A DNA stretch of 64,000 nt from Isoetes taiwanensis. Taxonomy: Eukaryota > Streptophyta > Lycopodiopsida > Isoetales > Isoetaceae. Below the pieces are notes generated by a model that did not search any database, was not told where the DNA came from, and saw nothing but the letters and a program-made list of their open reading frames with translations. Below, in pieces: positions 1 through 49,215 of the stretch (position 1 is its first letter; each line of letters begins with the position of its first letter). Made by a program: the position numbers and the translations under genes. The stretch lies in contig JAJEKV010000112.1 of assembly GCA_021234155.1 (NCBI GenBank), positions 1,324,341-1,388,340 of the forward strand. Reading direction: 5' to 3'.

Positions 1-1218
1 TTACCCTCTTTTTCTTGGGATTCCAACATTGTTGTTACCTCATATACCATATCAGCTGCTGAGACCTTAGAACATTAGTCATGATGCCCCTAGAGACTCC
101 TATGGTATAGTTATGCAACTCCATAATCTGCTAAAAATATCTTCAACCCCTCCTTCATTATCTTCTTTGTGTCTTCACTCATATACTGAGACTTCTATTG
201 GAATTCCACTAATGCAATTCCTATATGAGCTAACAACAGTTCCAACCTTTTTGAATCACCTTCTGTCCATGTCTTCAACTTGGTGGCAACATATGAAGAA
301 GGAAACATTGAATCATAAAGTGTCCATTCCTTCTCTATAAGTCTAGGTTCATCTTCATATCTTATCCTAGAAAAGTCCAATGAGCCTTCATATTGGTACC
401 ATCTGTCAAAGTGATTGTGGTTATCATCTGAAGATTTCCAAAACTATTTATATACTGCTCAAGTTCCATGACTCCTGCCTAATATCTCTCACGTGTGGTC
501 CTTTCATGAACAAATTTTCTGTTAATGATACACATGTATTTCAAAGAAGTTCATTTGAGTTTTTGTGCATAGCATGTGCAATCTCAAACAACAAATATCT
601 TGTGTGTTTTCCATGAAAAGTGCCACTTCTATTTCCTATTTTAACGTATTCTAAGCATCTAGCATTCTCATGATCCACCCCATCCCTCCTCCTTTTTCTT
701 GTTTCGTACACATTATATTCATCATCCGATTCATCCTCATCTTCGTCTTCAAGATCAGGTTTTTTTGTTGTTAAATCTGATTAGAGAGCAAGACTAGCCA
801 CATCAAGATTATACATCAGATCTGATTCAGTATCAACTTCTTTCGTGTACAATAATACAATTTGTGTGTCATTGTCAGTCAAAGTATTAAGATGAATAGG
901 TCTATGCCTATCAATAACAAAAATTGAAACAACTCTAAGTTTTAGCAGACGTCTTAGGTCACGAATCGCACTCCAGTTTAGAAGCAATAACAGTAAAGCC
1001 TGCTGCTGGTCTACTAATAGCTATGAATCCTCAATGTCGTGAAAGCTTGTAATAGGCATGATTCCATCAGAGGCCAATTTTTGTGTCGCAATCTTAATAA
1101 CACATGAGAATCTGCATCTGCTGTAAATGGAAAAATGAAGATTGAAATGGTGTGGGTCGCTTTTCTTTGCAGACCTAATACTTTCATAGAATTGAGCATC
1201 ATTTTGTTCCCTAATCAT
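1..1218 (-). pseudogene. CDC45: CDC45 fragment 1 (N-terminal plus middle part), broken
   Basis: Read on the minus strand, the start is ATG at 1216-1218, giving MIREQNDAQFYESIR, the N-terminus of plant CDC45. At 987-781 comes LLNWSAIRDLRRLL with FVIDRHRPIHLN, a CDC45 family signature. Next is an acidic linker, and at 380-195 the middle part YEDEPRLIEKEWTLYDS and SSYVATKLKTWTEGD. CDC45 is part of the CMG replicative helicase (established). This copy is not functional. The reading frame stops after DVASLAL (TAA at 781-783), changes frame near 1,080-1,200, and is broken again in the middle part. No introns are visible, so the founder was either a processed copy or intronless here. The copy runs off the left end of the window. 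The identification is firm from several independent motifs. Confidence 0.85.
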
Positions 1219-1676
1219 TCTCCTTGTCTAAAAATCCAATTAAACTGAAGAAATCAAGCAACATTTAAACCGGCAGGGTCTGAATAGCAAAAGAAAGAGA
1301 GGAGCATGATTTGATGAATGGCCATAAACCAAGCAATATTTGCGTGGCATTTGGTCATTTTTTCTCCCAAATCCGAGGGAGGGTTGCAAGATGGCACTTA
1401 AAAGTTTCTTCCTCCAAGGATTTGTTGCTGACGTGGAAACTATATTGATACGCCATCCAAGATCTGTTACGACGTGTCAAGCCCCCATCATCAGCCAAAC
1501 CCCCCGTTATCGCCCAAGCAAGCGCCACGGGCCTAGAGCTAGAACGGGCAACCCCGCGGGGCAAATGCAGATCTGATACGGGCAAGGGCACATTGCTGAC
1601 ATGGAAACCATCTCGGCACACCGTCCATGACTCATGCTACCATAACATGCCCCTCGTTATCAGCCTAGTAACACAA
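1219..1676 (-). repeat. GC-rich spacer of the CDC45 unit
   Basis: This segment lies directly upstream of the CDC45 start and recurs in the same place in every unit, so it may hold the old 5' flank or promoter (inference). It begins with an AT-rich part ending in a conserved lead-in to the ATG. It then has GC-rich modules containing GGAAACCATCTCGGCAC and GTTATCAGCC-like words. Here it is fused near 1,676 to the C-terminal CDC45 piece, which differs from the usual junction. No gene is visible in it. Confidence 0.7.
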
Positions 1677-3160
1677 GCTTGACCTGTGGGAAACACCTAT
1701 AATTAAAGCCATTGAAGACTCGGGATCGCGAACCGCACATATCATATGTTTCATTCCAGCATCATCCTCTCTTAGAGCATCCATCAGGAAGTAATAGAAC
1801 TTAATAAGACATATGGGCTATCCTAAAAGCATTAAATCAGGTCCTCCATCAAGTTTCAACCACCTAGACTCTTCAGCACTCCTTATGTATTCCTGTTTTA
1901 AAATGGTTAAAGTGCCTTGGCTCACAATAGCCTTTTGCACCTTGATAGCTTGTTGCATATCAAGCTGCAAATCCTTCTAATTAGTTGGTGAAAGGCAGCA
2001 TATACTTTCTAGAATTGATCTGCAAAGTTTTTATCCTCTTCTCCTTGGATGCCAACACTGTGTTACCCCATATACCACATCAACTGCTGAGACCTTAGAA
2101 AAGTAGTCATGATGCCTCTGGAAACTTCTATAGTACAATTCTAGAAGTCTATAATTTGCTGAAAATGTCTTCAACCCCTCCTTCATTATCTTCTTTGTGT
2201 CTTTACTCATATACTGAAACTTCTGCTGGGATTCCACTAATGCAATTCCCATATCAGCTAAAAACAGTTTCAACCTTTTCAACACAGGTGAAAGGGCAAA
2301 GATATATGCTTTCAAGAATGATCTACAAAGTTCTTACTCTCTTTTCCTTGGGATTCTAATACTGCTATTACCTCATATACCACATCGAGCCATGAGACCT
2401 TAGAACAAGAGCCATGATGCCTCTAGCTCTGGAAGTCTATAATTTGCTGAAAATGTCTTCAACCCCTCCTTCATTATCTTCTTTGTGTCTTCACTCACAT
2501 ACTGAAACTTCTGCTGGGATTCCACTAATGCAATTCCCATATCAGCTAAAAACAGTTTCAACCTTTTTGAATCACCTTCTGTCATCTCTTCTGCTTGGTA
2601 GCAACATATGAAAAAGAAAATGTCGAATCATAAAGTGTCCATTCCCTTAGAAGCATAAACCTAGGTTCATCTTCATAATGTCGAATCATAAAGTGTCCAT
2701 TCCCTTAGAAGCATAAACCTAGGTTCATCTTCATATCTTATCCTTGCATTGATACCATCTGTCAAAGTGATTGTAGTTATCATCTAAAGATTTCCAAAAC
2801 TTGATCTATATACTACTCAAACTCCATGACCCTGCATGATATCTCTCGTCTGTGGTCCTTTCATGAACAAATTGATCTGTTAATGACATGCATGCCTTTC
2901 AAAGAAGTTTATTTGAGTTTTTGTGCATAGCATGTTCAATCTCAAACAGCAAATACCCTGTGGGTTTTTCATGAAAGGTACCACTTCTATTTCCTCTTTT
3001 AGCACATCCATTCCTTTATAGCCTCGTTTAAGCATCTAGCATTCTCATGATCCACCCCATCCCTCCTCCTTTTTCTTGATTCTTCCACATTCATCCTCAT
3101 CTTCATCTTCAAGATCAGTTCCTGTTGTTGTTAAATTTGATTATGCAAATGAAGTGACTA
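1677..3160 (-). pseudogene. CDC45: CDC45 fragment 2 (C-terminal piece and duplicated middle part)
   Basis: On the minus strand, 2,030-1,690 corresponds to the CDC45 C-terminal region: a MALIIG-type end is missing, but QAIKVQRAIV-like, QGTL and RWLK-like words can be read, and it ends abruptly at about 1,676. The middle part is present twice in tandem: 2,315-2,031 (LLELYYRSFQRHHDYFSKVS) and again at 2,585-2,400. A 57-bp local repeat at about 2,620-2,735 duplicates the stretch around the EPRLML motif. At 3,140-3,200 the copy ends in a rearrangement module shared with three other sites. Frameshifts and stops make it non-functional. Confidence 0.8.
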
Positions 3161-3199
3161 CCTTCCGGCTATTGCTATACTTTGCAACTTGTTTTGGAA

Positions 3200-3641
3200 G
3201 GCTCCGGACTTTTCTAGGACAATATATGATGAAGAACCTAGACTTACGCTTCTGAGGAAATGAGCACTTTATGATTCAACATTTTCTTCTTCATATGTTG
3301 CTACCAAGCTAAAGACATGGACAGAAGATGATTCAAAAAGGTTGAAATTGTTGTTAGCTCGTATGCGAATTGCATTAGCAGAAGCTCTAATATATGAGTG
3401 GACACAAAGAAGATAATGAAGAAGGGGTTGAAGATATTTTCAACAATTTATAGACTTTGAGAGCTATACTATAAGAGTTTCTATAGGGATCATGACTATT
3501 GTTCTAAGATCTCAGCAACTGATGTAGTATATGAGGTAATAACAATATTGAAATTTCAATGAGAAGAGAGTAAAAACTCTGCAAATCAATTTCGGAAAGT
3601 ATATGTTGACTTTCACCAACTAATTGGAAGGATTTGTAGCT
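3200..3641 (+). pseudogene. CDC45: CDC45 fragment 3 (middle part only), plus strand
   Basis: The orientation flips at about 3,200. The plus strand reads the middle of CDC45: a FSRTIYDEEPRLTL-like stretch, then SSYVATKLKTW-like and LLARMRIALAE words, SATDVVYEV and NQFRKVY. It ends at the recurrent junction GTAGCTTAACG (about 3,642), where CDC45 sequence is replaced by spacer. It is too short and too frame-broken to encode anything. Confidence 0.8.
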
Positions 3642-4202
3642 TAACGATGGTACTTGGCTGATAACGGGGGTTCTGACATATTATCATAGGTCTTGGACAC
3701 GTTGCCGAGATGGTTTCCACGTTAGCAATGCAACCTTGCCCGTGTCAGACTGCCCAGAGCAGCTCTAGGGCCATCGAACACGCCAAGTGGCTGATAACTG
3801 TGGTACTATGCTAATAGCGGGGGGCATGGTACGTCAGCACGAGCCATGGACGATGTGCCGAGATGGTTTCCATGTCAGCAATGTGCCCTTGCCCATATTT
3901 GCCCCGAGGGCTGCACGGGGTGGCTCTAGGCCCGTCGCGCCTTCCTTGGCCGATAATAGGGGGTTTGATTGATGACGGGAGGGCTGACATGTCATAACAG
4001 GTCTTGGATGGCGTGTCAAGATGGTTTCCACATCCGCAACAAATCCTTGGAGGAAGAAACCTCTAAATGCCAGCTTGCAACCTTCCCTCGGCATTGGGAG
4101 AAAAAATGACCAAGTGCCATACAAATATTGCTTGGTTTAAGGCCATTCGTGAAATCATGCCCATCTCTTTCTTTTGCTTTTCAGGCCCTGCTGGTTTAAA
4201 TT
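3642..4202 (+). repeat. GC-rich spacer of the CDC45 unit, plus strand
   Basis: Contains at least three related modules, each about 170-190 bp, marked by GAGATGGTTTCCACGT or GATGGTTTCCATGTCAGC and by GGCTGATAACGGGGG-like words. It finishes with the AT-richer lead-in (GCTTGGTTT-like) that precedes CDC45 N-termini elsewhere. CpG content is visibly higher than in the flanking CDC45 coding remnants. It contains no supported gene. Confidence 0.7.
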
Positions 4203-5345
4203 TTGTTTGGTTTCTATGCTCAATTCTATGAAACTATTAGGTCTGCAGCAAAAGTAGCCACTGCTTTCCCAGCCTTCATTCTTCCATTTTCAGCAGATGC
4301 AGATTCTTCATACACCGTTAAGATTGCGACACAAAATTTGGCCTCTGATGGAATCACGTATTCTATTTATCCTATTACAAGCTTTCACAACATTGAGGAT
4401 TCAGAGCTATTAGTAGAGCAGCATTAGGCTTTAGTGTTGTTACTTCTAAACTGGAGTGTCGATCGTGACCTAAGATCTCTGCTAAAGCTTAGAGTTGTTT
4501 CAATTTTTATTATTGATAATCATAGACCTATTCATCTTAATAGTATGAGTGACAATAACACACAAGTTGTGGTATTGTACACTAAAGAAAATGAGGTTGA
4601 AGCAAGTCTAATGTATAATCTTGATGTGGCTAGTCTTGCCATCTAATCAGATTTAACAACAGAACCTGATCTTGAAAACGAAGATCAAGATGAATTGCAT
4701 GATGAATATGATGTGGAAGAAACAAGAAAAAGGGGGAGGACCATGAGAATGCTAGATGCTTAAAAGAGGCTATAAAGGAATGGATGCGCTAAAAGAGGAA
4801 ATAGAAGTGGCACCTTTCATGGAAAACCAAAGGGTATTTGCTGTTTGAGATTGCACACGCTATGCACAAAAATTCAAACGAACTTTATTTGGTAGGCTCC
4901 AGACTTTTCTAGGATAATATATGAAGAAGAATCTAGACTTATGCTTCTGAGGAAATGGGCACTTTATGATTCAACATTTTATTCTTCATATGTTGCTACT
5001 AAGCTGAAGACATAGACAGGTGGTGATTCGAAAAAGTTGGAACTATTGTTAGCTAGTATGCGAATTGTATTAGCGGAATCCCAACAGAAGCTTCAGTATA
5101 TGAGTGGACACAAAGAAGATAATGAAGAGGGGTTGAAGACATTTTTAACAGTTTATGGACTTTGAGAGCTGTGCTATAAGAGTTTCTACATGGATCATGA
5201 CTATTGTTATAAGGTCTCAGCAGCTGATGTAGTATATTTGATAATAGCAGTATTGAAATCCCAAGGAGAAGAGGGTAAAAACTCTGCAAATCAAATTCGG
5301 AAAGCATATATTGACTTTCACCAGCTAGTTAAAAGGATTTGGAGT
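4203..5345 (+). pseudogene. CDC45: CDC45 fragment 4 (N-terminal plus middle), plus strand
   Basis: The true start is lost in a small deletion, so the copy begins at AQFYETIRSAAKVATAF. Next come ITSFHNIEDSELLVEQH (stop at 4,425) and LLLLNWSVDRDLRSLLKL with IIDNHRPIHLN (4,434-4,646). The shared stop TAA follows SLAI at 4,644-4,646. The acidic linker and HAMHKNSNEL-like word follow. The downstream part reads SSYVATKL and AADVVY and ends at the recurrent spacer junction (about 5,346). At least four frame breaks are present. This is the clearest plus-strand example of the basic unit. Confidence 0.85.
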
Positions 5346-5939
5346 TTAACGGGGGTACATGGCTGATAAGGGGGTCTGATATATTAGCATAGGTCTTGCA
5401 CAAGTTGCCGAGATGGTTTTCATGTCGGCAAAGCAACCTTGCCCGTGCCAGACCGCCCGGGGCCACTCTAGGCCCGTCGCGCACGCCTTGGCTGATAATT
5501 GTGGTACTAGGCTGATAATGGGGGGCATGGTACGTCAGTATGAGTCATGGACGGTGTGAAGAGATGGTTTCCACATCAGTAATATGCCCTTGCCCGCATC
5601 AGATCTGTATTTGCCCCCCGGGGCTGCCTGGAGCGGCTTTAGACCCGTCGTGCCTACCTTGGCTAATAATGGGGGTTTTGGCAGATGACGGGGGGCTTGA
5701 CGCGTCATAACAGGTCTTGGATGGTTTGTCAAGATGGTTTCCACGCCAGCAATAAATCCTCGGAGGAAGAAACCTCTATGTGCCAGCTTGCAACCCGCCC
5801 TCAGACTTGGGAGAAAAAATGATCAAGTGTCACGCAAATATTGCTTGGTTTATGATCATTCGTGAAATCATGCCCATCTCTTTCTTTTGCTATTCGAACC
5901 GTGCCGGTTTAAATTTTACTTGATTTCTTAATTGAATTT
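5346..5939 (+). repeat. GC-rich spacer of the CDC45 unit, plus strand
   Basis: Same layout as the spacer at 3.64-4.20 kb: repeated GGTTTCCACRTCAG-type modules, then the conserved AAACCTCT...GGGAGAAAAAATGA stretch and the AT-rich lead-in. The near-collinear repetition of spacer plus CDC45 shows a head-to-tail unit of roughly 1.7 kb. No gene is seen. Confidence 0.7.
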
Positions 5940-6415
5940 TAGATAAAAAAGAATCATTAAGGAACAAAATGATGCACAATTCTATGAAAGTATCAGGTCT
6001 GCAGCAAAAGCAGCCATCGCATTTCCAGTCTTCAGTTTTCCATTTGCAGCAGATGCAGATTCTCCATGTGTTGTTAAGATTGCGACACAAAAATTGGACT
6101 CTGATGGAAGCAGGTATTCTATTTATCCTATTATAAGCTTTCACGACATTGAGGATTCAGAGCTATTAGTAGAGCATCATCATGCTTAATTGTTATTGCT
6201 TCTAAACTGGAGCACAATCTATGACCTAAGACTGCTGCCAAAGCTTTGAGTCGTTTCAATTTTTATTGTTGATAATCATAGACCTATTCATTTGAATAGT
6301 TTGAGTGACAATAACACACAAGTTGTGGTATTGTACACTAAAAAAATGAGTCCAAAGCAGATCTGATGTATAATTTTGATGTGGCTCTAGTCTTGCTCTC
6401 TTTCGGCTCGAAGTT
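5940..6415 (+). pseudogene. CDC45: CDC45 fragment 5 (N-terminal part), plus strand
   Basis: The start codon is mutated (ATC in place of ATG), followed by the frame for KEQNDAQFYESIRSAAKAAI, PFAADADSPCVVKIAT and SFHDIEDSELLVEHH. RDLRLLPKL-like and HRPIHLNSLS words follow. The copy breaks off near 6,415 where the orientation inverts. The N-terminal part is nearly open for about 80 codons but lacks a start, so I call it a remnant. Confidence 0.82.
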
Positions 6416-6417
6416 CC

Positions 6418-7098
6418 TCTTCTGAAGATCATGCAGAGCAAATATCCTGTGGGTTTTCCATCAAAAATGCCACTTTTGTTTCCTCTTTTAGCGCACCCAT
6501 TCCTTTATAACCTCTTTTAAGCGTCTAGCATTCTCATGATCTTTCCCATCCCTTCTCCTTTTTCTTGTTTCTTCTACATCATATTTATCATGCGATTCAC
6601 CCTGATCTTCATCTTCAAAACCAGGTTCTGTTGTTAAATCTGATTAGATAACAAGACTAGTCACATCAAGGTTATACATTAGATCTGCTTCAGCCTCATC
6701 TTCTTTAGTGTACAAATACAATACCACAAGTTGAGTGTTATTGTCACTCATACTATTAAGATAAATAGGTCTATGATTATCAATAATAAAAATTGAAACA
6801 ACTTCAAGCTTTAGCAGAGGTCTTAGATCACGAACGACGCTCCAATTTAGAAGCAACAACACTAAAGTCTAATGCTGCTCTACTAATAGGTCTGAATCCT
6901 AAATGTCGTGAAAGCTTGTAATAGGATAAATAGAATACATTATTCTATTAGAGACCAATTTTTGTATCACCATCTTAACGACACATGGAGAATTTGCATC
7001 TGCTGGAAATGGAAGAATAGAGACTGGGAAAGCGTTGGCTCTTTTACTGCAGACATAATACTTTCATAGAATTGAGCAGCATTTCATTCCCTAGCCAT
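6418..7098 (-). pseudogene. CDC45: CDC45 fragment 6 (N-terminal part and piece of middle), minus strand
   Basis: Minus-strand ATG at 7,096-7,098 opens as M-A-R-E and then meets a stop, where other copies read REQNDA. Downstream, 6,862-6,644 reads LLLLNWSVVRDLRPLLKL and IIDNHRPIYLN, with an inserted dipeptide in the VVLYLYTKEDE stretch. It ends at the shared stop. A short piece of the GTFHGKP-type segment survives at 6,430-6,520 before the inversion. Confidence 0.83.
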
Positions 7099-7520
7099 TC
7101 TCCTTGATATAAAATCCAATTAAACTGAAGAAACCAAGCAAAATTTTAAACTAGCAGGGTTTGACTAGCAAAAGAAAGAGAACGCAATTGGGCATAAATC
7201 AAGCAATATTTGGGTGGCACTTGGTCATTTTTTCTTTCAAGTCCTAAGGAAGATTATAAGCTGGCACTTAAAGGTTACTTCCTTCAAGGATTTGTTGCTG
7301 ACGTGGAAACGATCTTGGCACGCCATCCAAGACCTTGATAATATGTCAGGCTCTCCATCATCAACCAAATCCCTCCGTTCTTAGCCAAGGCGGGCACAAC
7401 AGGCCTAGCGCCACCCCAGGCCGCCCTGTGGATCCAGGGTGGGCAAGGGCGCATTGCTGATGTGGAAACCATCTCGGCATGCCATCCAAGACACATGCTT
7501 GACGTGTCTAAAATCCCTAT
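7099..7520 (-). repeat. GC-rich spacer of the CDC45 unit, fused to a receptor-kinase gene
   Basis: A shortened spacer with two GGAAACSATCTYGGCA modules. At about 7,500-7,530 it is fused to the 3' end of the receptor-kinase pseudogene. This is the left-block boundary of the CDC45 array. Confidence 0.6.
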
Positions 7521-9738
7521 TATGATTTGCACCACCTTGCCCATCTCAAACCTGCATACTGGATCCAATTGAATGCACCACATGGCTACCTTGGATCCAA
7601 TTGAATGCACCACATGGCTACCTTCACGCATCTCTTAAACTGCTCCCAATCTATGTGCTTCTGAAATCTAGGATCTGCTACAACTTCCAAATGCCCATTT
7701 TTTAATTTCTCTAGAGCCCACTCTGGAAAATAACATTTATTACCTTCTACAGCTGGGGTCGTAATCAAGAGGTTTTGTCTACCACTTAAAATTTCAAACA
7801 AAAGCATGCCATAGCTATATACACCTGCCTTGGCAGTGATGGGCTGATTGGTAGTCCATTCTGGTGCTAAGTACCCCCTCGTGCCTCTAATGGTCGACAT
7901 AGAAGTGACAGTTTCCCTACTCATCAATTTAGCCAAACCAAAATCACATATCGTCCAACAGTATATTTTGAGGCTTGATGTCAAAACGACGGATGCACTC
8001 ATCGCATTCCTCATGTAAATACATGATGCCTCTAGCAACAAATCGGATATCCCAATGGGATGTTTGATCATTCAAGCTGGAGAACAAGAAATTGTCCAGG
8101 GACCCATTTGGTATGTACTGATGAACTAGCAAACGGTATGGACCTTCAGAACAATATCCTAACTAACATTTGATGGCAATCAGAGTTTTATCTGGTAACT
8201 TACCTTTGTGAACTTGCCCAAACCCACCAGATCCAATCTTATGACTGAAGTTCTCACTTGCAAGCTTGAGCTGCTCATATGAAAACCTGGTAGGCATGCC
8301 ATGCATCCATCCATGTTCCCGTGTTGCTCTCCACTTTGATTTAAGCATAAAAAAGCCACAGATGCAAAAGATGAGACAACAGATTCACTTACGGCTACAA
8401 ACAACATTGATGTTGCATATTTGCGTGGCAGAAAAGAACGCTTTTCTAAAGAATCCTTGATAGTTGAAGGCAAAAAAACAGTGGTATAGGAGCTCAAATC
8501 TTAAGGGAATTGCATAGTAACATTTATCTTAGTATCTGTTGAAAGTTTTAGAAGAACCACGTATGGAATACCAGGTGATTGCATCCCATTCGAAAGCTTG
8601 CTTTTGAGCAAGCATGTGCCTACTTCAGAGAGGTAATAAACAGCAACCGCACACTTGCATTCATCCAAGCAATATTTTTTTACATGTGTCCATGGACACA
8701 AAATAATATCCATCGAAGTCATTGCTATGAAAATTCTGCATGCTATATAAGGAAATGATGCTGAGCTTTTCCTTTGCAACATTAGTGCTGCATCCAATTT
8801 GAATTTGCTGAACACATTTCCCATTTTGCATCTCGAAGCCGGGCGACAAATGCAAGTAGGAGTTGGCATGTAGGCACATACTGCATTAGTCCCACATCTG
8901 CCATATATGCTACACTCTGTTAGCATAGCCTGCCATAATATGACCCATGATTAGTTTGAGCTTGAATTAAGACCATATACTCTAGCATTTCCATCATCAT
9001 CTAAAGACAACCTTCTCATGATACCTTCCTGACTGGTAATCAAAATCAACCAGTTTATAGGAGTCATTCTCTTGCACATTGTAGACTGTTACTACACCAG
9101 ACGAGCTGAGATTAAGAAAGGGTGACTGAAAAGGAGTGGCTGAGTAGCTCCAATATGAAGGATCGGTCAATTGATCATCCAATCCTCGTGAAGATGTGTA
9201 GTTGAGCCGTATGCCTCTGGTGTAGATCTCTAGCAAGTAATCTCCATTGAGAGGGTAGAAGAAAATTTTTGACTGGGTACAAGGTGTGGGTGGAATAGGA
9301 GAAGCTTTCCCATACATTGCCACTGTTATTGAAGAGGACGAAATTGCCAGAATTTAACATAGAAGCTCCAGTTGCAGCAATGAAGCCAGTGCTTGCGTAC
9401 CAAACAGTATTGCCAGAATCTACAAGTGTTAAATTACCATTCATGGACAAGGAAATAGTGGCTCTACTACTAACTTCTATATCCTTCACTGATCCAGTTG
9501 ATCGGACACTCCAGACAACAGTCTGGGAAGGGACCTTGTCACACCAAATTGCCATAACAAATGTGCCATGCCGTACTTGAATAAATCCCATGGCAAAATT
9601 GCTATCATCAGATTTCCAAGAACTGTTTCCGGCAGCAATAATAGTTGAGCCAAGAGGAACAAGGGCAGCAGAGGGCAAAAAATTGCCCAGAAGGAATGGC
9701 ACCATAAGCCCAAGCCTGGCCATGCTGTGCGCTAACAT
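7521..9738 (-). pseudogene. G-type (bulb) lectin S-receptor-like kinase, SD2-5-like, decayed
   Basis: Plant plasma-membrane receptor kinase family. Minus-strand order: a start at 9,738 or the internal MARLG with a hydrophobic signal segment; bulb-lectin domain (9,690-9,250; NFAMGFIQ, VVWSVRST, LVDSGNTVWYAS, SFSYSTHTLYP); SLG-like region (9,320-9,000); EGF-like cysteines (CSIYGRCGTNAVC, about 8,920); PAN-like CLLDECKCAVAVYY; then the kinase domain with GSGGFGQVHKG and AIK (8,250-8,163), [24 protein letters not shown] (about 7,960), DFGLAKL, GTRGYLAPEW and VAMWCIQLDP. The stretch between the AIK lysine and the hinge (alphaC and beta4-5) is missing, and several frameshifts separate the pieces. 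The 3' end carries a 32-bp tandem duplication and is cut by the CDC45 spacer. FDIKPQN in place of HRD is typical of the SD2-5 group, not a defect. Confidence 0.85.
7561..7624. repeat. 32-bp perfect tandem duplication in the kinase 3' end
   Basis: Two identical copies (7,561-7,592 and 7,593-7,624) beginning GGATCCAATTGAATGCACCA. On the minus strand they duplicate the VAMWCIQLDP stretch of kinase subdomain XI and shift the frame. It lies within about 100 bp of the fusion to CDC45 spacer. Confidence 0.9.
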
Positions 9739-39160: not shown

Positions 39161-39178
39161 GTAATACCTGATTATGAC

Positions 39179-39586: not shown

Positions 39587-40630
39587 ATGGCCTTTGATGA
39601 TATGAATTATGGAAGAAAAGATACAGGGAAAAGCAAGAGACATAATAAGGGAGATGACCAAGAACTCATCATAGATTTAAGCTTTATAATGGCAATACTA
39701 AATCCCAATGTGCCAAGAACTTATGAAAAAATGTTGAATGCTCCTGACTGTGATAAATGGAAAGAGGCCATGTGTGCAGAAATGAAATTGTTTGAAAGAA
39801 CAAAAACTTATGAAGTTGTTAGCATGCCTGAAGGGAAGAATATAGTAGGCAATAAGTGGATATTTAAATTGAAAACAGGTCCAGACGGAGTCACTCAAAA
39901 ATACAAAGCAAGGCTCGTCGCACAAGGATTTTCTCAAAAATATGGTATTGAGTTTGAGGAAACGTTTTCTCCTTTAGTTAAGTTGACTAGTGTAAGAACA
40001 TTGCTTGCTTATGCCAATGCATATAATTTGGAATTAGAACATATGGATATGCATACTGCCTTTTTGAATGCAGAACTCAATGAAGAGATTTATATGTATG
40101 CTGTACCAGGCTTTGAACAAGGGAAAAACACAGTCTGGAAGCTAAATAGAGCCGTATACGGATTGAAACAGTCTCCAAGAGAGTGGTACAAATGCATTGA
40201 TTCATTCTTGAAAAGTAAGCGGTTTGCTAAACTTGAAACTGATGGTAATTTGTACATGTTTTATGAAGACGGTAATCTCTGTATAGTTGCTTTATACGTA
40301 GATGATTGTCTTATGGCAACCAATAGTGAATGTTGTATGAGATATTGCAAACAGATAATGATGAGCAGATTTGAGATGTTTGAGCTGGGCAAACTAACAA
40401 AGTTTCTTGGAATGGAAATCACCAGGGATAGACGGAATAATATACTGAAATTGACACAGGGAGGATATATAAAAAGCATGCTGAATAAATTTAGAATGGA
40501 AGATTGCAAACCAGTCGGTTGTCCAATGCTTCCGGGCACTAAACTGTCCAGCACTATGAGTCCACAGACTAATAAAGACAAATTAGAAATGACAACAGTC
40601 CCGTATCAGGAGTTAATAGGAAGTTTGTTG
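39587..40630 (+). pseudogene. Reverse transcriptase (RVT_2) of outer copia element, 5' part
   Basis: Open for 348 codons: DKWKEAMCAEMKLFERTKTY, IVGNKWIFKLKTGPDGVTQK, YKARLVAQGFSQKYGIEFEE, HMDMHTAFLNAELNEEI (first catalytic Asp), VYGLKQSPREWYKCI, and LYVDDCLMATNS (catalytic YVDD near 40,295-40,306). It is interrupted after ELIGSLL by the nested element, and the frame resumes as LYLVNS at 46,642. This was the most intact domain before the insertion. Confidence 0.92.
40626..40630. repeat. Target-site duplication of nested copia (left copy)
   Basis: TGTTG, repeated at 46,642-46,646. Removing the insert and one copy restores the GSLLYLVNS junction of the outer RT. Confidence 0.9.
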
Positions 40631-41529
40631 TGATGAAATTTTAATGATAATACACCCCAAGATAAATATCTAGCAAGATTTGCACTCTTACAACAATTTG
40701 AGTTCCAATGAAGATCTTAGTAAAAGCCAAGAGATGGTCACTTATTTTACTAGATCATATTCACAACATCATCATTCAAAATACTAGATACCATTCTAGA
40801 ATAGTCCTAGGATAATAAGATCCTAGTCAATAATGAAATAGCTAGAATAGTCTTAGGATAATAATAATGGCCATTCAACCATTAGAATACTGTAGCATAA
40901 ATTCACTGTTCATCGGGCATTGACCCGATCACTGTAGCCATGTTGACTTCCGGCATTTCGATCCTTTTCAAGCTCGAATAATCTCCTCCTGCAGTTAATC
41001 CCCTTCTACAAATGTTTCTTCGGCTATATACGACGTTCCGGCGGTTATGGGTCCTGATTTTCTTTCCTATCTTGGTATTCCAGATCGTCGATAATATCCC
41101 ACAGGACAAGTCTGAGGAATTCCCACAGGACTAATTGCTCGAACTGGCTTCTCGACCATTGAATTAAAAATTGCCTTAATAAAAGGTTCTTCTTCAACAT
41201 ATAGGTTAACATTTCATATATCATCTCAACCTTAAGATAACCTTCAACATTGAATCAACTTGGCATAATATCTTGGCAAGAGTTCCTCTCTCATTTGCAC
41301 ATTAGCTTTGACCATGATCTGCAAGTGAAACCTACTGCCACTGCTTCTCATAGGTAAATTATGCAGACATGTTGAACTCAATTTGATCTACACTACTGCC
41401 ACTGCTTCTCATAGTTAGATCAGACACAATATAACCCAGTACTCTTCAAATAACCTTGTACTCAACATATATTGTTATTTGCATAGCATATACTAACCTT
41501 GTAGGATTATGAGGTGAATATTTCCATCA
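40631..41529 (-). repeat. 3' LTR of nested copia element
   Basis: Identical to the other LTR for roughly the first 255 bp from the left end, then clustered mismatches and short indels, especially at about 40,890-41,140 and 41,325-41,435. Confidence 0.92.
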
Positions 41530-41559
41530 CCCTCCTTCAACTCATAAGCCCGCAAGTCC

Positions 41560-42509
41560 GACTTCTCCAAAGACCTTTAACTCGCTTTAAAATCCATTAA
41601 ACTTGTTGATAGGCGGGGGCCTTGGTAAAAATATCTGCAACTTGATGATTAGTATCCAAGTAAAGCATTTCAATTATCTTTCTTTCTGCCAGCTCTCTTA
41701 TAAAGTGGATGCTTAGTTCAATATGTTTGGTTCGATCATGTTGCACAGGATTTTTCACTATGGCTATGCAACTTTGGCTATCTGTCCAGACATCGTGGGT
41801 TCAGTTTGTTCACAGTGTAGTTCATCCATTAACCTTCTCAACCATACAATTTCTTTAGCTACAAGTGAAGATGCGGATACTACCGCTTCGCGAACTCATG
41901 GCTATAGCTGTTTGTTTTTTGCACCTCCAGGTAATTACTCCACCACCAAAGAAAACAGCATATCCTGAAGTTGATCTTCTGGTGGAGAGATCACCTCCCC
42001 AATCTTCATCACTAAAGCATGCCATAGTTAGGTCTTCTGAGTCATAGCATATTCCTTGACTTTGAGTGCCTTTTCGGATATTTCACAAAGACACGCTTAG
42101 CGACCTCCCAATGTTCCTTTGTTGCATCATGATTTCTTCTGCTTAGGATATTTACAGCATAAGCAATGTCAGGACGAGTGCTATTGGCTAAATAAAGTAG
42201 GCAGCCAATCAATGCACGATAGGGTACATTTTCCATCTTTGTAGTCTCCTCCTTTGTGGTTTGCTGAATATCAGTCAGCCTATGCCCTGGAATCATGGGT
42301 ATTTTTGCAGGTTTGGCTTCAACTAAATTAAATCTTTTGAGCATATTTTCTATGTGCTTACTTTGATGCAATTTGAGCCATTTCCCTTCTTTATTTCTGA
42401 TCACCTCAATTCCCAGAAACTTTCTTAGCTCCCCTAAGTCTGTCATTTGGAACCTTGCCTTCAGAATACCTTTGCATTTATTTAGAATATTTAGTGAAGT
42501 TGCCACCAT
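41560..42509 (-). pseudogene. RT C-terminal part and RNase H of nested copia element
   Basis: 42,509-42,042 reads LGELRKFLGIEVIRNKEGKW, MLKRFNLVEAKPAKIPMIPG, YRALIGCLLYLANSTRPDIA and YAVNILSRRNHDATKEHW. Below 42,042 only frame-shifted RNase H words remain (DSQSCIAIVKN-like, NQTY-TKHP, QVADIFTKAP-like). The break in YVDDCIM lies near 42,510-42,525. Confidence 0.82.
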
Positions 42510-42520
42510 GATACAATCAT

Positions 42521-43519
42521 CTACATAAAGAGCAATAATGCTTGCTCCAATCTGTAGAGATTACCATCATTGTGAAGTTTGTTAAACCCTTGTTCTTGCA
42601 GAAACTGATTTATGCAAAGATACCATTCCCTGGGTGACTGCTTCAACCCATACATTGCTTTATTCAGTTTCCAGATCATGTTCTTGCCTAGTTCATAGCC
42701 TGGTGGTTGCCTCAAAAATGCTTCTTCTTCCAAGGTTGCATTTAGGAATGCTGTTTTGACATCCATGTGATGTATTTCCAGTTTTCTTGTATTTGCCATG
42801 GCCAGCAATATTCTGATGCTTGTCAATTTGACTAGGGGAGAATATGTTTCATCATAATCTCTTCCCTTCTTCTGTGTATAACCCTGTGCTACCAATCTAG
42901 CTTTATATTTCTTAGTCCCATCTGGATTTAGTTTAATTCTGAATAACCATTTGCTGCCAATGATGTTATGCTTACCATCTGATTTTACCAGTTCATATGT
43001 TTTAGTGTCTTCAAACGATTTGAGTTCATCATTCATGGCTGCTATCCATTTATCTCTGTCAATATTTTCTTGTACATCTTCATAGCTTTGGGGAATTATC
43101 TCATCTTCTAATATTGCCATAATATATTCATGTTCATGTTCAACTGTTTTTGCTTCAATTCTTTTACTTCTTCCCCTTTCATTTCTGCCATAAACTTGAT
43201 CATCCAGTTTTGCTTCTTCAACAAGTTTTTCTGCTTGAGTTTTCCTTTTCTTCTTTTCATGATGTTCATTTATGGGCTCAACCACACCATCTTGTCCTAG
43301 ATCTGAACTGTCTTCAGATCTTGGTTGTTCCAGATTATTTGTTTCCTTTGGCATTTCTGGAATTTCTGATTCCTCATAATCCTCTTCTTCAAATTCCACC
43401 TTTGGAGTTTGTTCAGGTTTATCAGGTTGAACTTTGATGCCTTTCTTGAATTTATGTTTGTATAACACTTCTTCACTAAATAATACATCTCTACTAATTA
43501 CGATTTCCTTGGTCTCCAA
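42521..43519 (-). pseudogene. Reverse transcriptase of nested copia element
   Basis: 332 open codons: acidic and basic linker (EDYEESEIPEMPK, EHHEKKKRKTQAEKL), then KWIAAMNDELKSFEDTKTYE, YKARLVAQGYTQKKGRDYDE, HHMDVKTAFLNATLEEEAF, PPGYELGKNMIWKLNKAMYG and LKQSPREWYLCINQF. The frame is lost at the YVDD motif. Confidence 0.92.
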
Positions 43520-44342
43520 GTGAGTAGATTACATACCCTTTAGATTCTTTGTCATATCCTACCAAGAACCCTTTTTCTGCCCTGTTATCTAACTTTTTCC
43601 TTAGTTCAGATGGTACATGCACATAGACCAAACATCCATATGCCTTGAACTTTTCATAGTTTAGCTTCTTTTCTGGATCCCATAGCAGCATAGGGATATT
43701 TCCTTGTAGACTTTACTTGATGGAAGCATATTCTGGATTTCATTTCTTGTATAAAGTGCTTCTTCCATAGATAGTTAGGTAAGCCACTTTCTTTTAACAT
43801 TGATCTAACAAAGATCTAATAGGGTTCTATTCTTCCTTTCACGAAACTCCATTCTGCTGAGGTGAGTGTCTGCACGTTAATTGTCTCTTGATTCCATGTG
43901 ATATGCAAAATGATTTGAATTGACCTGAAAGGTATTCTCCTCCTCTATCTGATCTGATACATTTCACTTTGACACCTGTTTCTCGTTCCTTTTCTGCAAC
44001 ATATTGCTTGAATGCATTTATGGCTTGTGACTTCCTGGTTAAACAATATGTGGTGCATGTTCTGCGAGGGCCACATAAATCTGAATGTATCAGTTCAAGT
44101 TTTTGTTGTGCTCTAGTTTTCCTTTTATGAAATGGCAACCTGCTTAATTTACCCAGGGCACATCCCTCACATATGATATCTTGTCTAGTTTCATTCTCAA
44201 AGCTGATGTGACCTTGCTTGTGAAGAGATTCTAATTTTTTATAATTAGTGTGGGCAAGTCTATTATGCCAAGTGTCTACCCCAACTTCCTGAACTGCATA
44301 CACTATTTTCCAATCCATACAAGTTCCCCACATGTTTGCCAT
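43494..44342 (-). pseudogene. Integrase of nested copia element
   Basis: TWHNRLAHTNYKKLESLHKQ, CEGCALGKLSRLPFHKRKTR, HSDLCGPR, RSDRGGEYLSGQF and HSPQQNGVS cover the zinc part and the catalytic core, but the region between the first two catalytic Asp residues is shortened (CGPRRTCTTYCLTRKSQ). FKAYGCLVYVHVPSELRKKL and GFLVGYDKESKGYVIY follow at 43,691-43,494. The stretch after QQNGV to the AER-RT region is frame-broken. Confidence 0.85.
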
Positions 44343-44644
44343 AAAACTTTATTTCATTATCCTTCATAATATTGCACTGATCTGTATCAAATACAACTTT
44401 ATATCCCAAATCACACAACTGACTAACTGATATTAAATTTTTGATAATTCCAGGCACGCACAAAACATTCTGGATGTTTATAACATTTCCAAACCAAATC
44501 ATTAATCGCGGTAATCCTCTTCCTTGAACATCTTGGAGGGCTCCATTTCCCACTTGAATTTTCCTTGAACTTTGCCTTTGTTATATTCTTCAAGAGATCA
44601 ATATTTTGTACTATTGATCTTTCGGCTCCACTATCAACTATCAA
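44263..44644 (-). pseudogene. Protease region of nested copia element
   Basis: MIVDSGAERSIVQNIDLLKN contains the DSGA catalytic motif (about 44,632). The following VLCVPGIIKNLISVSQLCDL is the typical segment before the integrase zinc domain. One frameshift near 44,540. Confidence 0.83.
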
Positions 44645-44819
44645 ATGATCAAATTGTTAGTTGACATACTCTCATTAACAATTGCAAATTCATGAGATAC
44701 CTCATCCTCATCTTCTTCATTTGCACAGTCTTCTTGTTCTCTTGCCACATAGGCCTTTTTATTTTCCGTCCTCTCTGCCACCTCTTGTATGTCGGCTTCA
44801 CCTCTTCACCTCTTGCGGA

Positions 44820-45703
44820 TCTACCATAGTTTTTAGGTGTAGGACATTTTGAGGCTGCATGTCCTCTGCCACCACATGTGTAGCAATTGAAATCCCTTTT
44901 TTAATTTGGGGCATTCATTCTTATAATGACCTTTTTCATGGCGATTTATAGCATATCACTTTATCTTTTTTCTTAAGCAATAGAATTTCTGGAGTTTCAT
45001 CGGTTATTGACTCACGCCTTAGTATCTTTCTCTGCTCCCACTTAGTTCTTAATATATTTTCTGCCTCTTCTCTTGATTTACATGAATTTCTTATGAATAA
45101 GGCCAAGGTCTCATTTTCACCAATTGCCCTAGATATTTGCAACACTTGACTTCTTTCAGAAATGACCACTCCTGCTCCATTGAGGTCAGCAATAAGATTA
45201 TCAAACTTATTGAAGAATTACATTTACATCCTCCTCTTCTTTAAGTTTTAAACCCCTTAATTCATTCTCAAGAAGATCAATTTGTGAGGATGTCTTTTCC
45301 TCATAGTGTTTAAGTAAAAACTTCCACATCTCTCTAGGACTTAATGACCTTAATTTCAAGCGTATAGTTGGACTAACCTTGCACGTGATAATGCCTTGTG
45401 CTTCCCTTGTTTTGGCAAGCAATGATTTGCCTCCTGTTCCAGATGCTCCAGCACCTGCTCCTGCATCCTTTGAAGCTTCGGTCTGCGTTCGCGGCCTTCC
45501 TATGGCGCTCCAACAACGAAACTAGAAGAACCGGTTACAGTAAGTACTCTTGTACCCTCTTCATTCTGCTTTGGATCCACCAGCTCCCAAAGGTCCTCCA
45601 CCTCAAGTATGTGTGCTATAGCATCTTTCCATACTTGGAAACCTAGACCTCCCTTGTATACATCCACGGATTCAATAATGATGCACCAAATCACGCTAGA
45701 CAT
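44820..45703 (-). pseudogene. Gag of nested copia element
   Basis: Pieces: GGLGFQVWKDAIAHILEVED with LWELVDPKQN (45,660-45,560), VSPTIRLKLRSLSPREMWKF and EKTSSQIDLLENELRGLK (45,370-45,240), SQVLQISRAIGENETLALFI (about 45,140), and a CCHC knuckle C-Y-T-C-GGRG-H-AASK-C (about 44,886-44,845). Several frameshifts. Confidence 0.8.
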
Positions 45704-45722
45704 GTTGAGTTGCTCGATACCA

Positions 45723-46641
45723 GCATGAAATTTTAATGATAATACACCCCAAGATAAATATCTAGCAAGATTTGCACTCTTACAACAATTTGAGTTCCAA
45801 TGAAGATCTTAGTAAAAGCCAAGAGATGGTCACTTATTTTACTAGATCATATTCACAACATCATCATTCAAAATACTAGATACCATTCTAGAATAGTCCT
45901 AGGATAATAAGATCCTAGTCAATAATGAAATAGCTAGAATAGTCTTAGGATAATAATAATGGCCATTCAACCATTAGAATATTTGTAGCATAAATTTCTT
46001 TGTTCATGGGGCATTGACCCGATCACATGTGAACCATGTTGACTTCCGGCATTTCGATCCTTTTCAAGCTCGAATAATCTCCTCCTGCAGTTAATCCCCT
46101 TCTACAAATGTTTCTTGACTATATCTGACGCGTCCGGTTATGGGTCTGATTTTTCTTTCCTATCTTGGTATTCCGGATCGTCGATAATATCCCAAAGGAC
46201 AAGTCGAGGAATTGGCTTTCCACAAATATCCACGGACTAATTGCTCGAATCTGGCTTCTCGACCATTGAATTAAAAATTGCCTTAATAAAAGGTTCTTCT
46301 TCAACATATAGGTTAACATTTCATATATCATCTCAACCTTAAGATAACCTTCAACATTGAATCAACTTGGCATAATATCTTGGCAAGAGTTCCTCTCTCA
46401 TTTGCACATTAGCTTTGACCATGATGCAAAAGTGAAACCTACTCCCACTTTGCTTCTCATAGGTAAATTATGCAGACATGTTGAACTCAATTTGATCTAC
46501 ACTCACCGCCCTTGCTTCTCATAGTTAGATCGATTACACAATATAACCCAAGACTCTTCAAATAACCTTGTACTCAATATATATTGTTATTTGCATAGCA
46601 TATACTAACCTTGTAGGATTATGAGGTGAATATTTCCATCA
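45723..46641 (-). repeat. 5' LTR of nested copia element
   Basis: Right-hand LTR, next to the primer binding site. Its inner end reads ...TTTCATGC instead of ...TTTCATCA, a two-base change next to the primer site. Confidence 0.9.
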
Positions 46642-47238
46642 TGTTGTACCTAGTCAATTCTTTGCGGGCCGAGATATTAAACATTCGATTAGGATTACTC
46701 GGTGGTGGGTTACTGCGGCAATCCGGGCAAACAACATTGGATTGCGCCAAAAAAGGATATTAAGGTATCTCAAGGGCGTTGAATGTGGAATAACGTATTA
46801 TAATGAAGACTTGACACTAAAATGTTATTAGGATCTTGATTGGGGAGGAGATGTAGACTCTAGAAAATCTACCTCGGGGTTATGTACTCATCTTTGGGTG
46901 GAGGTGCAATTTCTGGAAGAGTAAAAATAGTCCAAATTGCTATGTCTCTGCGGAAGTCGGTATTATGCCACAACTCTTGCAAATAAGGAAATTGTATGGA
47001 GTAGGCGTTTGCTAAATGAACTTGGCATAATACAAGTCTTCTTGTGACAGATAGTATGAGCTGTATTGCCATTTGCAAAAATCCTGTGTTACATGAGCGA
47101 ACCAAACATATTGAAATGAATATGCATTTTATCAGAAGCATGGTAGAAAAAGGACATGTCTCAGTAGAGTATATTCCTACACAACAACAAGTTGCAGATG
47201 TGTTAACTAAACCTCTCTCACGATATAAAATTCCATAG
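46642..47238 (+). pseudogene. RT end and RNase H of outer copia element
   Basis: Resumes the outer RT at LYLVNS. After several frameshifts, DSMSCIAICKNPVLHERTKH, MNMHFIRSMVEKGHVSVEYI and QQVADVLTKPL (47,044-47,238) are the RNase H C-terminus that closes the copia polyprotein. Confidence 0.85.
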
Positions 47239-47317
47239 ATTTCTTGATGATGGGATTCTGAGTTTTGCGACTAAAAAGTGTGCGTTAAGGAAGTGAAAAA
47301 GTCGGATGAATATGACA

Positions 47318-47328
47318 TTAAGGAGGAG
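47318..47328 (+). other. Polypurine tract of outer copia element
   Basis: AAGGAGGAG-type purine run directly before the 3' LTR at 47,329, the plus-strand primer site. Confidence 0.75.
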
Positions 47329-47738
47329 TGTTGAAAATATAATGGTCATATTCATACTTGGAATTTTGACCTTAGGTTTAATGGTTAAAGGTGGCACCAT
47401 GTTAAACATTATGATATATATTCTTATGATACAGATTCGAAGGGTGGATGAATAGCTGAATGACAGGCCATGATATGTATTTTGGAAACCTGCATCTACT
47501 TTCTAATTTGATAACCAACCTTTAGGGATGGGTGCGTACAAAGCGGTAGAGATCGGTGAGATTGGATGTGTCTTGGGGTGTGCCCTATCGGGGCCGGAAT
47601 CTGCGCGTCGTGGCTGGATTTTGAGACAGATGTGTTGAGTCGTTGGCTTAATAAAATAGCTCAAGTTCTATATGTCAATTTTGAAATTGATTGATTAGAT
47701 GAAATAATAGTCTTAACATTTGTACTCAAGGGTTATCA
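47329..47738 (+). repeat. 3' LTR of outer copia element
   Basis: 410 bp, TGTT...ATCA ends, matched to the 5' LTR. Differences are concentrated at about 47,515-47,620. Confidence 0.92.
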
Positions 47739-47743
47739 CGGAT

Positions 47744-48300
47744 CTATGATTATCAATAACAAAAATTAAACAACTCAAAGCTTTAGCACCGTCTTAAGTC
47801 ATGAACCACACTCCGGGTTTAGAAGCAACAACACTAAAAGCCGATCTTTGCTCTACTAATAGCTCTACAATCCTCAATGTCATGAAAGCTTGTAATAGAA
47901 TAAATAGGATACAGATTCTATCAAAAGCCAATTTTTTGTGTGATCTGCTTGCCAATGGAAAAATAAAGACGGGAAAATAGTGATGCAGACCTAATACTTT
48001 CAAAGAATTAAGCAGCAAATGAACGAATTGATCTATTAATGATATGCGTGCCTTTCAAGGAAGTTTATTTGGATTTTTGTGCATAGCATGTGCAATCTCA
48101 AGCAGCAAATACCACATGGGGTTTTTCATGAAAGGTACCACTTCTATGTTTTAAATCCATTCCTTTATAGCCTCTTCTAAGCATCTAGCTCATTCCTTTC
48201 TTCCACATTCATCCTCATCTTTATCGCAAGATCAGGTCCTATTGTTGTTAAATCGGATTACGTAAATGAAGTCACTACCTTAAGCTCTGCTACCGCTATG
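47744..48300 (-). pseudogene. CDC45: Remainder of the CDC45 copy cut by the copia element
   Basis: Continues the N-terminal piece beyond the insertion (LKVLGL, NPGVWFMT-like frame-broken text) and then jumps by a deletion at about 48,020 to the linker and middle part. It ends in the recurrent rearrangement module at 48,260-48,310, where orientation flips. Confidence 0.78.
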
Positions 48301-49040
48301 CTATAAAAAAACTCAAACGAACTTTTTGGAAGCTATAGACTTTTCTAGGATAATATATGAAGAAAAACCTAGACTTATACTTCTGGGGTAAAAGCATGAA
48401 AGGGTGTCTATAAATGTATCCCTTTTGGTACATGTGGCTATATTACACAAATCACCCAAAGTACCCAAAATAGCCAAATAATATCCGAAATTTAGCTTAA
48501 ATGTATATGCAAAGTACATAAAATCGAAAAGTGTATGTTTATACAAATAAAAATAACCAAAATGTAATGCGGAAAAGTATCCATATTTGTACATCAATTC
48601 AATTACAATGTACGTTACACCCTTTCATGCTTTTACCCTCTGAGAGAATGGGCACTTTATGATTCAACATTTTCTTCTTCATATGTTGCTACCAAGCTGA
48701 AGACATGGACAGAAGGTGATTCAAAAAGGTTGAAACTGTTGTTAGCTCGTATGCGAATTGCATTAGCGGAATCCCAGCAGAAGCTTTAGTATATGAGTGG
48801 ACACAAGGAACATAATGAAGAGGGGGTTGAAGACATTGTCAACAGTTCATGGACATTGAGAGCTGTACAATAAGAGTTTCTACAGGGATCATGGCTATTG
48901 TTCTAAGGTCTCAGCCACTGATGTAGTATATGAGGTAATAGCAGTATTGGAATTCCAAGGAGAAAAAGGTAAAAGCTCTGCAAATCAATTTTGGAAAGCA
49001 TATATTGACTTTCACCAACTAATTGGAAGGGTTTGTAGCT
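48301..49040 (+). pseudogene. CDC45: CDC45 middle fragment, plus strand, carrying a TIR element
   Basis: Starts with NELF-like remnants and RIIYEEKPRLIL, is interrupted at 48,386-48,638, and resumes with REWALYDSTFSSSYVATKLK, LLLARMRIALAESQQKL and SATDVVYEVIAVLEFQGEK. It ends at the recurrent spacer junction (about 49,041). Confidence 0.83.
48386..48638. mobile_element. MITE-like element, 253 bp, 22-bp perfect terminal inverted repeats
   Basis: Ends GGGTAAAAGCATGAAAGGGT and the exact complement. TCTG duplicated at 48,382-48,385 and 48,639-48,642; CDC45 coding text is continuous across it. The interior is AT-rich and non-coding. A 4-bp duplication does not point to one of the common superfamilies, so none is assigned. 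Confidence 0.87.
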
Positions 49041-49215
49041 TAATGATAGTACTTTGCTGATAACGGGAGTTCCAACACATTAGAATAGGTCTTGGACAGG
49101 TTGTGGAGATGGCTTTTATGTCAACAATGCCACCTTGCCCGTGCCCTGTGCCGGCTGCTTTAGGATCGTCCGCCAGGTGGTGATAAGCGTGGTACTAGCC
49201 CCGATGGCGGGGGCA
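49041..49215 (+). repeat. Truncated GC-rich CDC45 spacer; right end of the array
   Basis: One module with GGAGATGGCTTTTATGTCAAC, then loss of similarity at about 49,215. Confidence 0.6.

Follow-up and report, generated by a model that had tools for sequence, protein, structure and literature searches.

The window, as we call the whole 64,000-nucleotide stretch of Isoetes taiwanensis DNA analysed here, carries 28 CDC45-like DNA pieces in positions 1-49,216, 10 on the plus strand and 18 on the minus strand (matches to the CDC45 locus of contig C1033, E <= 1e-10). A profile search with the Pfam CDC45 family (PF02724), which the initial annotation had named as a possible refutation of its gene assignment, gave 18 matches in the window (E 5.5e-30 to 3.1e-7; the leftmost begins 4 bases ahead of the window), each covering only part of the model and most containing stops. 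Together with the DNA matches, these establish the proposed identity as CDC45 and agree with the proposed number of fragments (about 18), their presence in both orientations, and their scrambling and expansion. The estimate that they fill roughly 25 kb was right as to a large CDC45 content and somewhat high as to its amount, since CDC45-covered bases sum to 17,479, all inside 1-49,215.

No array copy in the window has an intact CDC45 reading frame. Among at least 81 PF02724 matches genome-wide (a lower bound, 71 of 10,448 candidates being scored), only those on C1100 (L001; 591 aa ORF) and C1033 (L002; 590 aa ORF) span the whole model without a stop. The window pieces are 7-30% divergent from the C1033 gene and show median pairwise differences of 16% (region A, 10 copies) and 14% (region B, 7 copies); thus, they are distinct copies and not one locus assembled repeatedly.

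The features are listed below, with gene positions (in brackets) given in coordinates of the C1033 locus. CDC45 pieces were called by DNA match to that locus, and patches of rDNA intergenic spacer (IGS) by IGS match unless stated otherwise.

1-1261, minus: CDC45 copy (884-2185), truncated by the window edge, 82% to the C1033 locus
1425-1670, minus: IGS patch, adjoining CDC45 at 2544 instead of 2255
1674-2282, minus: CDC45 piece (1932-2544), 89.6% to the C1033 locus
2287-3140, minus: CDC45 piece (1377-2230)
3197-3642, plus: CDC45 piece (1796-2255), stopping at the common break
3642-4039, plus: IGS patch, about 2.6 subrepeats, 78% to the rDNA spacer of C91
4040-4216, plus: upstream part of the unit; 40 of the 40 genome matches listed are CDC45 array loci (40 of 142 candidates scored)
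4217-4885, plus: CDC45 piece (947-1637)
4894-5347, plus: CDC45 piece (1798-2255)
5347-5753, plus: IGS patch
5929-6402, plus: CDC45 piece (903-1375), forming the left arm of a closely spaced inverted repeat (also by folding and joint)
6437-7141, minus: CDC45 piece (884-1594), right arm of the same repeat (also by folding and joint)
7295-7508, minus: IGS patch without adjoining CDC45 3' edge
20911-21431, plus: CDC45 3' end and 3' flank (2192-2762)
21451-21740, minus: CDC45 piece (1393-1700), inverted joint 1700|2762 (also by joint)
21760-22097, minus: IGS patch
22104-23449, minus: CDC45 copy (884-2255), 82%
23613-24024, minus: IGS patch
24024-25357, minus: CDC45 copy in two pieces (1119-2255, 780-1061)
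25436-25837, minus: IGS patch
25850-27494, minus: CDC45, two pieces (1665-2253, 780-1894)
27578-27836, minus: IGS patch
27854-28526, minus: CDC45 piece (1504-2255)
30975-32432, minus: CDC45, three pieces
32440-33222, plus: CDC45 piece (903-1700)
33238-33515, minus: CDC45 piece (1750-2029)
33534-33971, plus: CDC45 piece (1812-2255)
33978-34332, plus: IGS patch
34407-35271, plus: CDC45 piece (780-1700)
35291-36757, minus: CDC45 copy and 3' flank (1263-2762), 85%
36765-47738, no strand assigned: nested LTR retrotransposon DNA with Copia-type gag and RT (Pfam PF14223, PF07727), splitting the array, bounded by direct repeats 36765-37173 and 47329-47738
47743-48387, both strands: small CDC45 pieces
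48641-49041, plus: CDC45 piece (1852-2255), 84%
49042-49216, plus: IGS patch with which the array stops (linker self-match to 49216; direct IGS match 49049-49146)

The right end of the array is well placed, as the final IGS linker piece stops at 49,216.

The chimeric CDC45-rDNA unit

The linker separating the CDC45 pieces consists of up to about 400 bp of 45S rDNA IGS subrepeats, each 150 bp long. It was identified as spacer because matching subrepeats, in two blocks, flank the SSU, 5.8S and LSU rRNA sequences of a locus on C91. Counting against our account, this rDNA unit, whose LSU matches over 1,537 bp vs a 3,401-position model, is degenerate and is the only place where rRNA was found beside IGS subrepeats; a preceding Rfam scan of six other linker-matching loci detected no rRNA. 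Linker bases 1-397 are about 69-79% identical to the IGS subrepeats over the matched parts. In the genome search (40 of 272 candidates scored) these bases were matched at 45 of the 71 places listed, on nine contigs, with none extending beyond base 397; the remaining 26 matches, all at CDC45 array loci, continue to base 475-480.

Arranged head to tail, the unit comprises an upstream region, the first ~443 of 590 CDC45 codons and ~2.6 IGS subrepeats, with a total length of about 1.7-2.1 kb, of which IGS makes up about 0.4 kb. Adjoining CDC45 3' edges, on the same strand and within 40 bp, were found for 38 of 51 IGS patches (17 loci). The junction lies at gene position 2250-2255 in 34 of these 38, and in the other four at 2102, 2216 and, twice, 2544. 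Recurrence of one junction at 34 of the 51 patches points to one CDC45/IGS joining event. Against this count the 13 of 51 patches that have no CDC45 edge within 40 bp and the four displaced junctions; we tentatively read both as later breaks, split patches or cuts at locus ends.

Divergence, shared rearrangements and spread

The array copies stand about 15% from the C1033 gene. With that gene taken as the ancestor, mismatch frequencies at codon positions 1, 2 and 3 are 0.156, 0.134 and 0.161, and C>T changes reach 36% at CG, 20% at CHG and 15% at CHH sites, vs 5.6% for A>G. The copies thus decay in the manner of neutral, methylated pseudogenes. In 60-bp bins, identity to the gene ranges from 0.67 to 0.93; the top bins lie beyond the break, where just 6-9 copies contribute, and before the break all bins are at or below 0.874. 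Selection for a small-RNA target was rejected, as nothing before the break is strongly conserved.

Trees were built from copies covering at least 88% of region A or B, shorter pieces being left out. Neighbours within 4 kb are no closer in region A (0.169, 9 pairs) than distant copies (0.160, 36 pairs), which suggests an old burst; region B shows somewhat smaller distances within 4 kb (0.118, 4 pairs) than between distant copies (0.144, 17 pairs), so that local exchange may have played a part, a point against the explanation that we prefer.

Rearrangements are shared between sites. The deletion joint 1648|1796 is present at 9 places on six contigs and the inversion joint 1700|2762 at 6 places on three contigs; a scrambled 8-kb block at C1078:23577000-23585036 is collinear, at 84% identity, with C996:7411212-7419400. 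Because this deletion joint is common to six contigs and the block is collinear between C996 and C1078, the scrambling was inherited. Copying of blocks is also seen within C996 (97%) and, inverted, between C996 and C922 (97%). IGS-bearing units occur on seven contigs (C996, C922, C1078, C321, C1077, C1108 and C1018), and the copies listed cluster on C996 and C922. The initial annotation had neither the chimeric unit nor the larger C996 array nor the inheritance of the scrambling.

The array parts fetched from C922 and C996 are about 97% identical, and a 5.8S region 99.4%. A plain allelic copy (haplotig) was rejected, since window positions 53000-57000 find only 69% dispersed-repeat matches and short pieces of up to 82%, and 61000-64000 only short matches of <200 bases. 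A bounded inverted duplication is more likely than an allelic version with rearrangements.

Origin of the array

We consider it probable that the array derives from a chimeric tandem repeat that has since decayed. A C1033-lineage CDC45 gene copy at an ectopic site would have broken near codon 443 and been joined, with at most 1 base of matching sequence, to about 2.6 IGS subrepeats. The resulting head-to-tail unit would have been amplified in an early burst, via unequal exchange or circles, with deletions and inversions early in the history of the array; later copying would have involved mainly multi-kb blocks, within C996 and between it and C922 and C1078. LTR elements interrupt the array. 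Of the mechanisms first offered for this locus, tandem amplification is supported by the head-to-tail units with one common junction, while transposon capture has gained no support so far, the linker being rDNA spacer.

A version compatible with this account, which we hold slightly likelier true than false, makes the spacer a passenger: an ordinary tandem duplication had its junction filled with rDNA and was expanded by unequal exchange. Foreign-DNA filler is ordinary at break junctions; given one founding event, IGS and amplification are statistically inseparable, and the lone IGS-bearing unit at C1018:4955354 is unamplified within the 6.5 kb read. Three CDC45 sites without IGS (C1035, C85 and C922:1582630) hold one to four pieces per stretch read, which speaks against a passenger role; the argument is weak, as the amplified copies probably go back to a single ancestor.

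Less likely, though of some weight, is a CDC45-IGS extrachromosomal circle that arose once, multiplied through rolling-circle replication and integrated into several chromosomes. It would account for two unlinked sources in one head-to-tail unit and for an identical junction on seven contigs; moreover, the sequence read on the flanks of the C1033 gene, which is intact, contains no linker, and C1033 has no further unit match among the matches listed. However, the dispersed sites share the later joint 1648|1796 and the collinear scrambled block, so these sites, at least, moved as rearranged blocks.

We are doubtful that the captured spacer acted, by analogy with known elements, as a natural amplification-promoting (replication-stimulating) element that multiplied the CDC45 fragment. 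A further step, in which hairpins would give rise to small RNAs directed at the CDC45 gene of C1033, is less likely. As a functional reading in its own right, that prediction from sequence seems highly improbable to us. The inverted pieces at window 6040-7015 do fold at -481 kcal/mol vs -208 +/- 5.4 for 20 shuffles, the inverted joint of the 5929-7141 repeat persists at 4 places, distributed over three contigs, and 295 of 1,753 coding 21-mers of C1033 are found exactly in the window vs 31 of 1,756 for C1100. Nevertheless, any inverted duplicate would fold likewise, divergence is near-flat over codon positions and the best-conserved bins lie past the break.

Capture by a transposon (Helitron, Pack-MULE or similar) is comparably improbable: units on seven contigs and LTR elements inside the array would suit it, but the listed copies cluster on C996 and C922, the LTR elements break the array and lie outside the unit, and the recurrent copy boundary, as judged from 51 IGS patches, is CDC45/IGS. 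A transposon as the linker itself was rejected once the linker had been traced to rDNA. A retrocopy origin is not supported, inspection by eye revealing no poly(A) after the 3' ends of four CDC45 pieces.

Relation to known repeats

Gene-derived tandem arrays are known in animals. The Su(Ste) and AT-chX repeats of Drosophila lie in silent chromatin and consist of truncated protein-gene copies in tandem, as the CDC45 copies are truncated and in tandem; the Drosophila repeats make piRNAs silencing the parent gene, which on present evidence sets them apart from the CDC45 array.

By analogy, the array resembles IGS-derived plant satellites, yet carries a protein-gene fragment. Like them, its unit holds a stretch with homology to rDNA spacer of the same species and lies outside working rDNA arrays (at gathering score, Rfam matches nothing in the window; a lone 5.8S copy on C922 is 284 kb from the window, the distance to the C996 array part being about 93 kb). 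Unlike them, it is neither a long homogeneous tandem array (median divergence 14-16%, scrambled) nor mainly spacer DNA. Tandem Repeats Finder reports no unit, its 500 bp period limit being below the unit length.

In tomato, spacer subrepeats were multiplied by recombination alongside foreign sequence, namely an LTR element that had inserted into 18S rDNA (Jo et al. 2009, PMC2679016); in the present array IGS is the minority of the unit and is paired with a fragment of a host protein gene. IGS-related repeats of Vigna and others (as cited in PMC8724763) and Physcomitrella (PMC6302065) likewise hold spacer subrepeats in tandem, as independent satellites in some plants, and the accessible text mentions no gene fragment in them. 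In tobacco, the amplification-promoting sequence of rDNA (APS; Borisjuk et al. 2000, summarized in PMC8724763) is likewise a spacer piece beside a gene whose copy number is raised; it was transgene-tested, whereas the array offers an association only, probably from one event. Titles and abstract openings in the literature disclosed no CDC45 array or gene-IGS chimera, and the main texts of the Isoetes genome papers contain no 'CDC45', 'rDNA', 'ribosomal DNA' or 'satellite'. A sex-determining-region idea was dropped, as the titles listed gave nothing on CDC45 in plants.

CDC45 gene models called within the arrays should be treated as pseudogenes. Plant satellites from rDNA spacers are already known; here one tandem unit combines spacer with a protein-gene fragment, and its one recurrent junction and still-readable history make it a case for testing the role of spacer DNA in amplification. 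If the amplification-promoting reading were true, the genome itself would have run the tobacco cloned-spacer experiment, multiplying a protein-gene fragment.

CDC45 copies in the genome and in the window

The genome searched comprises 1,658,258,908 bases in 1,110 sequences, and its rbcL gene looks like one from a non-seed plant. The Pfam CDC45 model has at least 81 matches in it, 18 of them inside the window (71 of 10,448 candidates scored). Two matches cover the full model without a stop, those of the genes on contigs C1100 (591 aa ORF) and C1033 (590 aa ORF), whose proteins are 78% identical. At the DNA level, 28 CDC45 pieces (10 plus, 18 minus) cover 17,479 bases of the window. The initial annotation, which described a multicopy array of CDC45 fragments in both orientations, is borne out on both points by these counts, and the intact gene that it proposed to look for elsewhere was found twice; the array is, nevertheless, more complex than it described.

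Window pieces have 70–93% identity to the C1033 locus and generally lower identity to the C1100 gene. In trees of two regions (44 and 34 sequences) the array copies group with the C1033 gene, and a copy on contig C85 adjoins the C1100 gene. The latter (C85:106686-108465) is an additional near full-length copy with stops; in two regions it differs by 0.5–6% from the C1100 gene. It is either a pseudogene of recent date or an allelic contig rich in errors. For one repeat unit, window 22104-23900, 119 matches were listed (40 of 260 candidates scored), mostly at C996:7.25-7.52 Mb and C922:1.32-1.36 Mb (C922 being the contig of the window, which occupies C922:1324341-1388340), with further ones on C1078, C321, C1077 and C1108, at the C1033 gene and at C922:1.58 Mb.

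Other features of the window are as follows.
2619-2735 and 7560-7624: two tandem repeats, each of two exact copies (58 and 32 bp), amid otherwise decayed DNA
7586-9738 (minus): fragments with protein kinase and B_lectin domains, from a lectin-type receptor kinase, flanked by array parts
36.8-47.7 kb: LTR Copia DNA interrupting the array
53000-57000: member of a dispersed repeat family with matches of ~67–74% on many contigs

A chimeric unit with a recurrent junction

Many pieces start near position 780-884 of the oriented C1033 locus, upstream of the start codon, and share a 3′ stop at 2255 (codon ~443 of 590). Units are spaced at ~1.7–2.1 kb, a linker of ~480 bp separating the stop from the next start. 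Among the matches listed (40 of 272 candidates scored), linker bases 1-397 occur at 45 additional places on nine contigs, none reaching beyond base 397, and the 26 other matches are CDC45 array loci that extend to base 475-480. The linker beyond base 397 taken together with the CDC45 upstream region gave 40 listed matches, 40/40 at array loci (40 of 142 candidates scored).

Linker-matching loci on four of the nine contigs have in common a 150-bp subrepeat adjoining 195-bp subrepeats; G+C is 55–70% in two of the four loci, and none of the four showed rRNA. On a fifth contig, C91, a longer stretch holds SSU, 5.8S and LSU rRNA flanked by two subrepeat blocks, and a 5.8S gene is present on at least five of the nine linker-matching contigs, 4 to ~370 kb off (40 scored of 37,650 candidates). 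Because of this flanking arrangement and these 5.8S genes, the linker is, judged by sequence, 45S rDNA intergenic spacer (IGS), the identity on the four other contigs being read from the linker match alone. The rDNA unit at C91:14500-32000 is degenerate, with an LSU match of 1,537 bp vs a model of 3,401 positions.

The junction was surveyed at 17 loci (the window and 16 others), counting CDC45 3′ edges of like strand up to 40 bp from a patch. Such an edge adjoins 38 of 51 IGS patches (13 are without), at position 2250-2255 in 34 of the 38; within the window it adjoins nine of ten patches, eight at 2253-2255. Six window junctions have an identical break site and, by eye, at most 1 base common to CDC45 and IGS there. 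The recurrent junction fits the expectation from one event.

Neutral-type decay and copying in blocks

Substitutions were analysed in 113 aligned pieces with the C1033 gene as assumed ancestor. Mismatch at the three codon positions is nearly equal between array and C1033 gene (0.156, 0.134, 0.161), vs 0.129, 0.087 and 0.247 between the two intact genes. C>T rates are 36% in CG, 20% in CHG and 15% in CHH contexts, and A>G is 5.6%; this context bias reads as the mark of long methylation. Fourfold sites differ by 0.176 between array copies and C1033 gene vs 0.289 between the intact genes, and therefore amplification is probably younger than the gene split. Copies at C1078:23577000-23585036 are farther from the C1033 gene than the related C996 copies (0.21–0.31 in two tree regions; over all pieces, 0.184 vs 0.150), as if they mutated faster.

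Median difference among window copies is 0.164 in region A (n = 10) and 0.141 in region B (n = 7), two compared CDC45 stretches. Near neighbours are not closer than distant copies in region A (0.169 vs 0.160) and somewhat closer in region B (0.118 in 4 pairs vs 0.144 in 17). The unit-level burst thus looks old, and subsequent homogenisation weak.

In C1033-locus positions, six contigs share the 1648|1796 deletion (nine places), and two inverted joints, 1700|2762 (six places) and 1375|1590 (four places), are each found on three; five joints occur once. Since identical joints recur on several contigs, the scrambling was largely copied, not repeated. Whole blocks were copied as well: C996:7411212-7419400 and C1078:23577000-23585036 are collinear at 84%, three blocks within C996 are 97% alike, and the pieces read from C996:7474-7518 kb match C922 in reverse orientation at ~97%. 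On each of the two array contigs there is a lone 5.8S rRNA copy (C922:1645158-1645310, C996:7607864-7608016); the surrounding 4.5 kb are 99.4% identical, above the arrays (~97%).

Origin, possible roles and classification

We propose that an ectopic CDC45 copy would have been joined to rDNA spacer, that the joined piece would then have been amplified in tandem and that the array would afterwards have been rearranged and moved as blocks. The source is taken as ectopic because no linker was seen in the flanking DNA read at the C1033 gene and no other unit match on C1033 is among those listed (40 of 260 candidates scored). The burst is compatible with either unequal exchange or circle reinsertion.

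The IGS piece may have contributed to amplification, by analogy with two published cases: in tobacco a cloned spacer element increased linked-gene copy number (PMC8724763), and in tomato a satellite arose from rDNA spacer into which an LTR element had inserted (PMC2679016). Three sites whose CDC45 copies lack IGS (C1035, C85, C922:1582630) have one to four pieces each, which favours such a contribution weakly; against it, the founding event was probably single, and a lone unit on C1018 is unamplified within the 6.5 kb read. The sequence would also allow a small-RNA role, given a long predicted hairpin at window 6040-7015 (−481 kcal/mol vs −208 for 20 shuffles) and the presence in the window of 295 of 1,753 C1033-gene 21-mers (31 of 1,756 for C1100), but up to the break identity per 60-bp bin never exceeds 0.874, and the bins of 0.90 and 0.93 sit past it, on 6–9 copies.

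No published CDC45 array or chimera of gene and rDNA spacer was found in the literature searched, most subscription papers lying outside the search. The array is best filed as a new variant among rDNA-spacer-derived tandem repeats, one with a protein-gene fragment in the unit.
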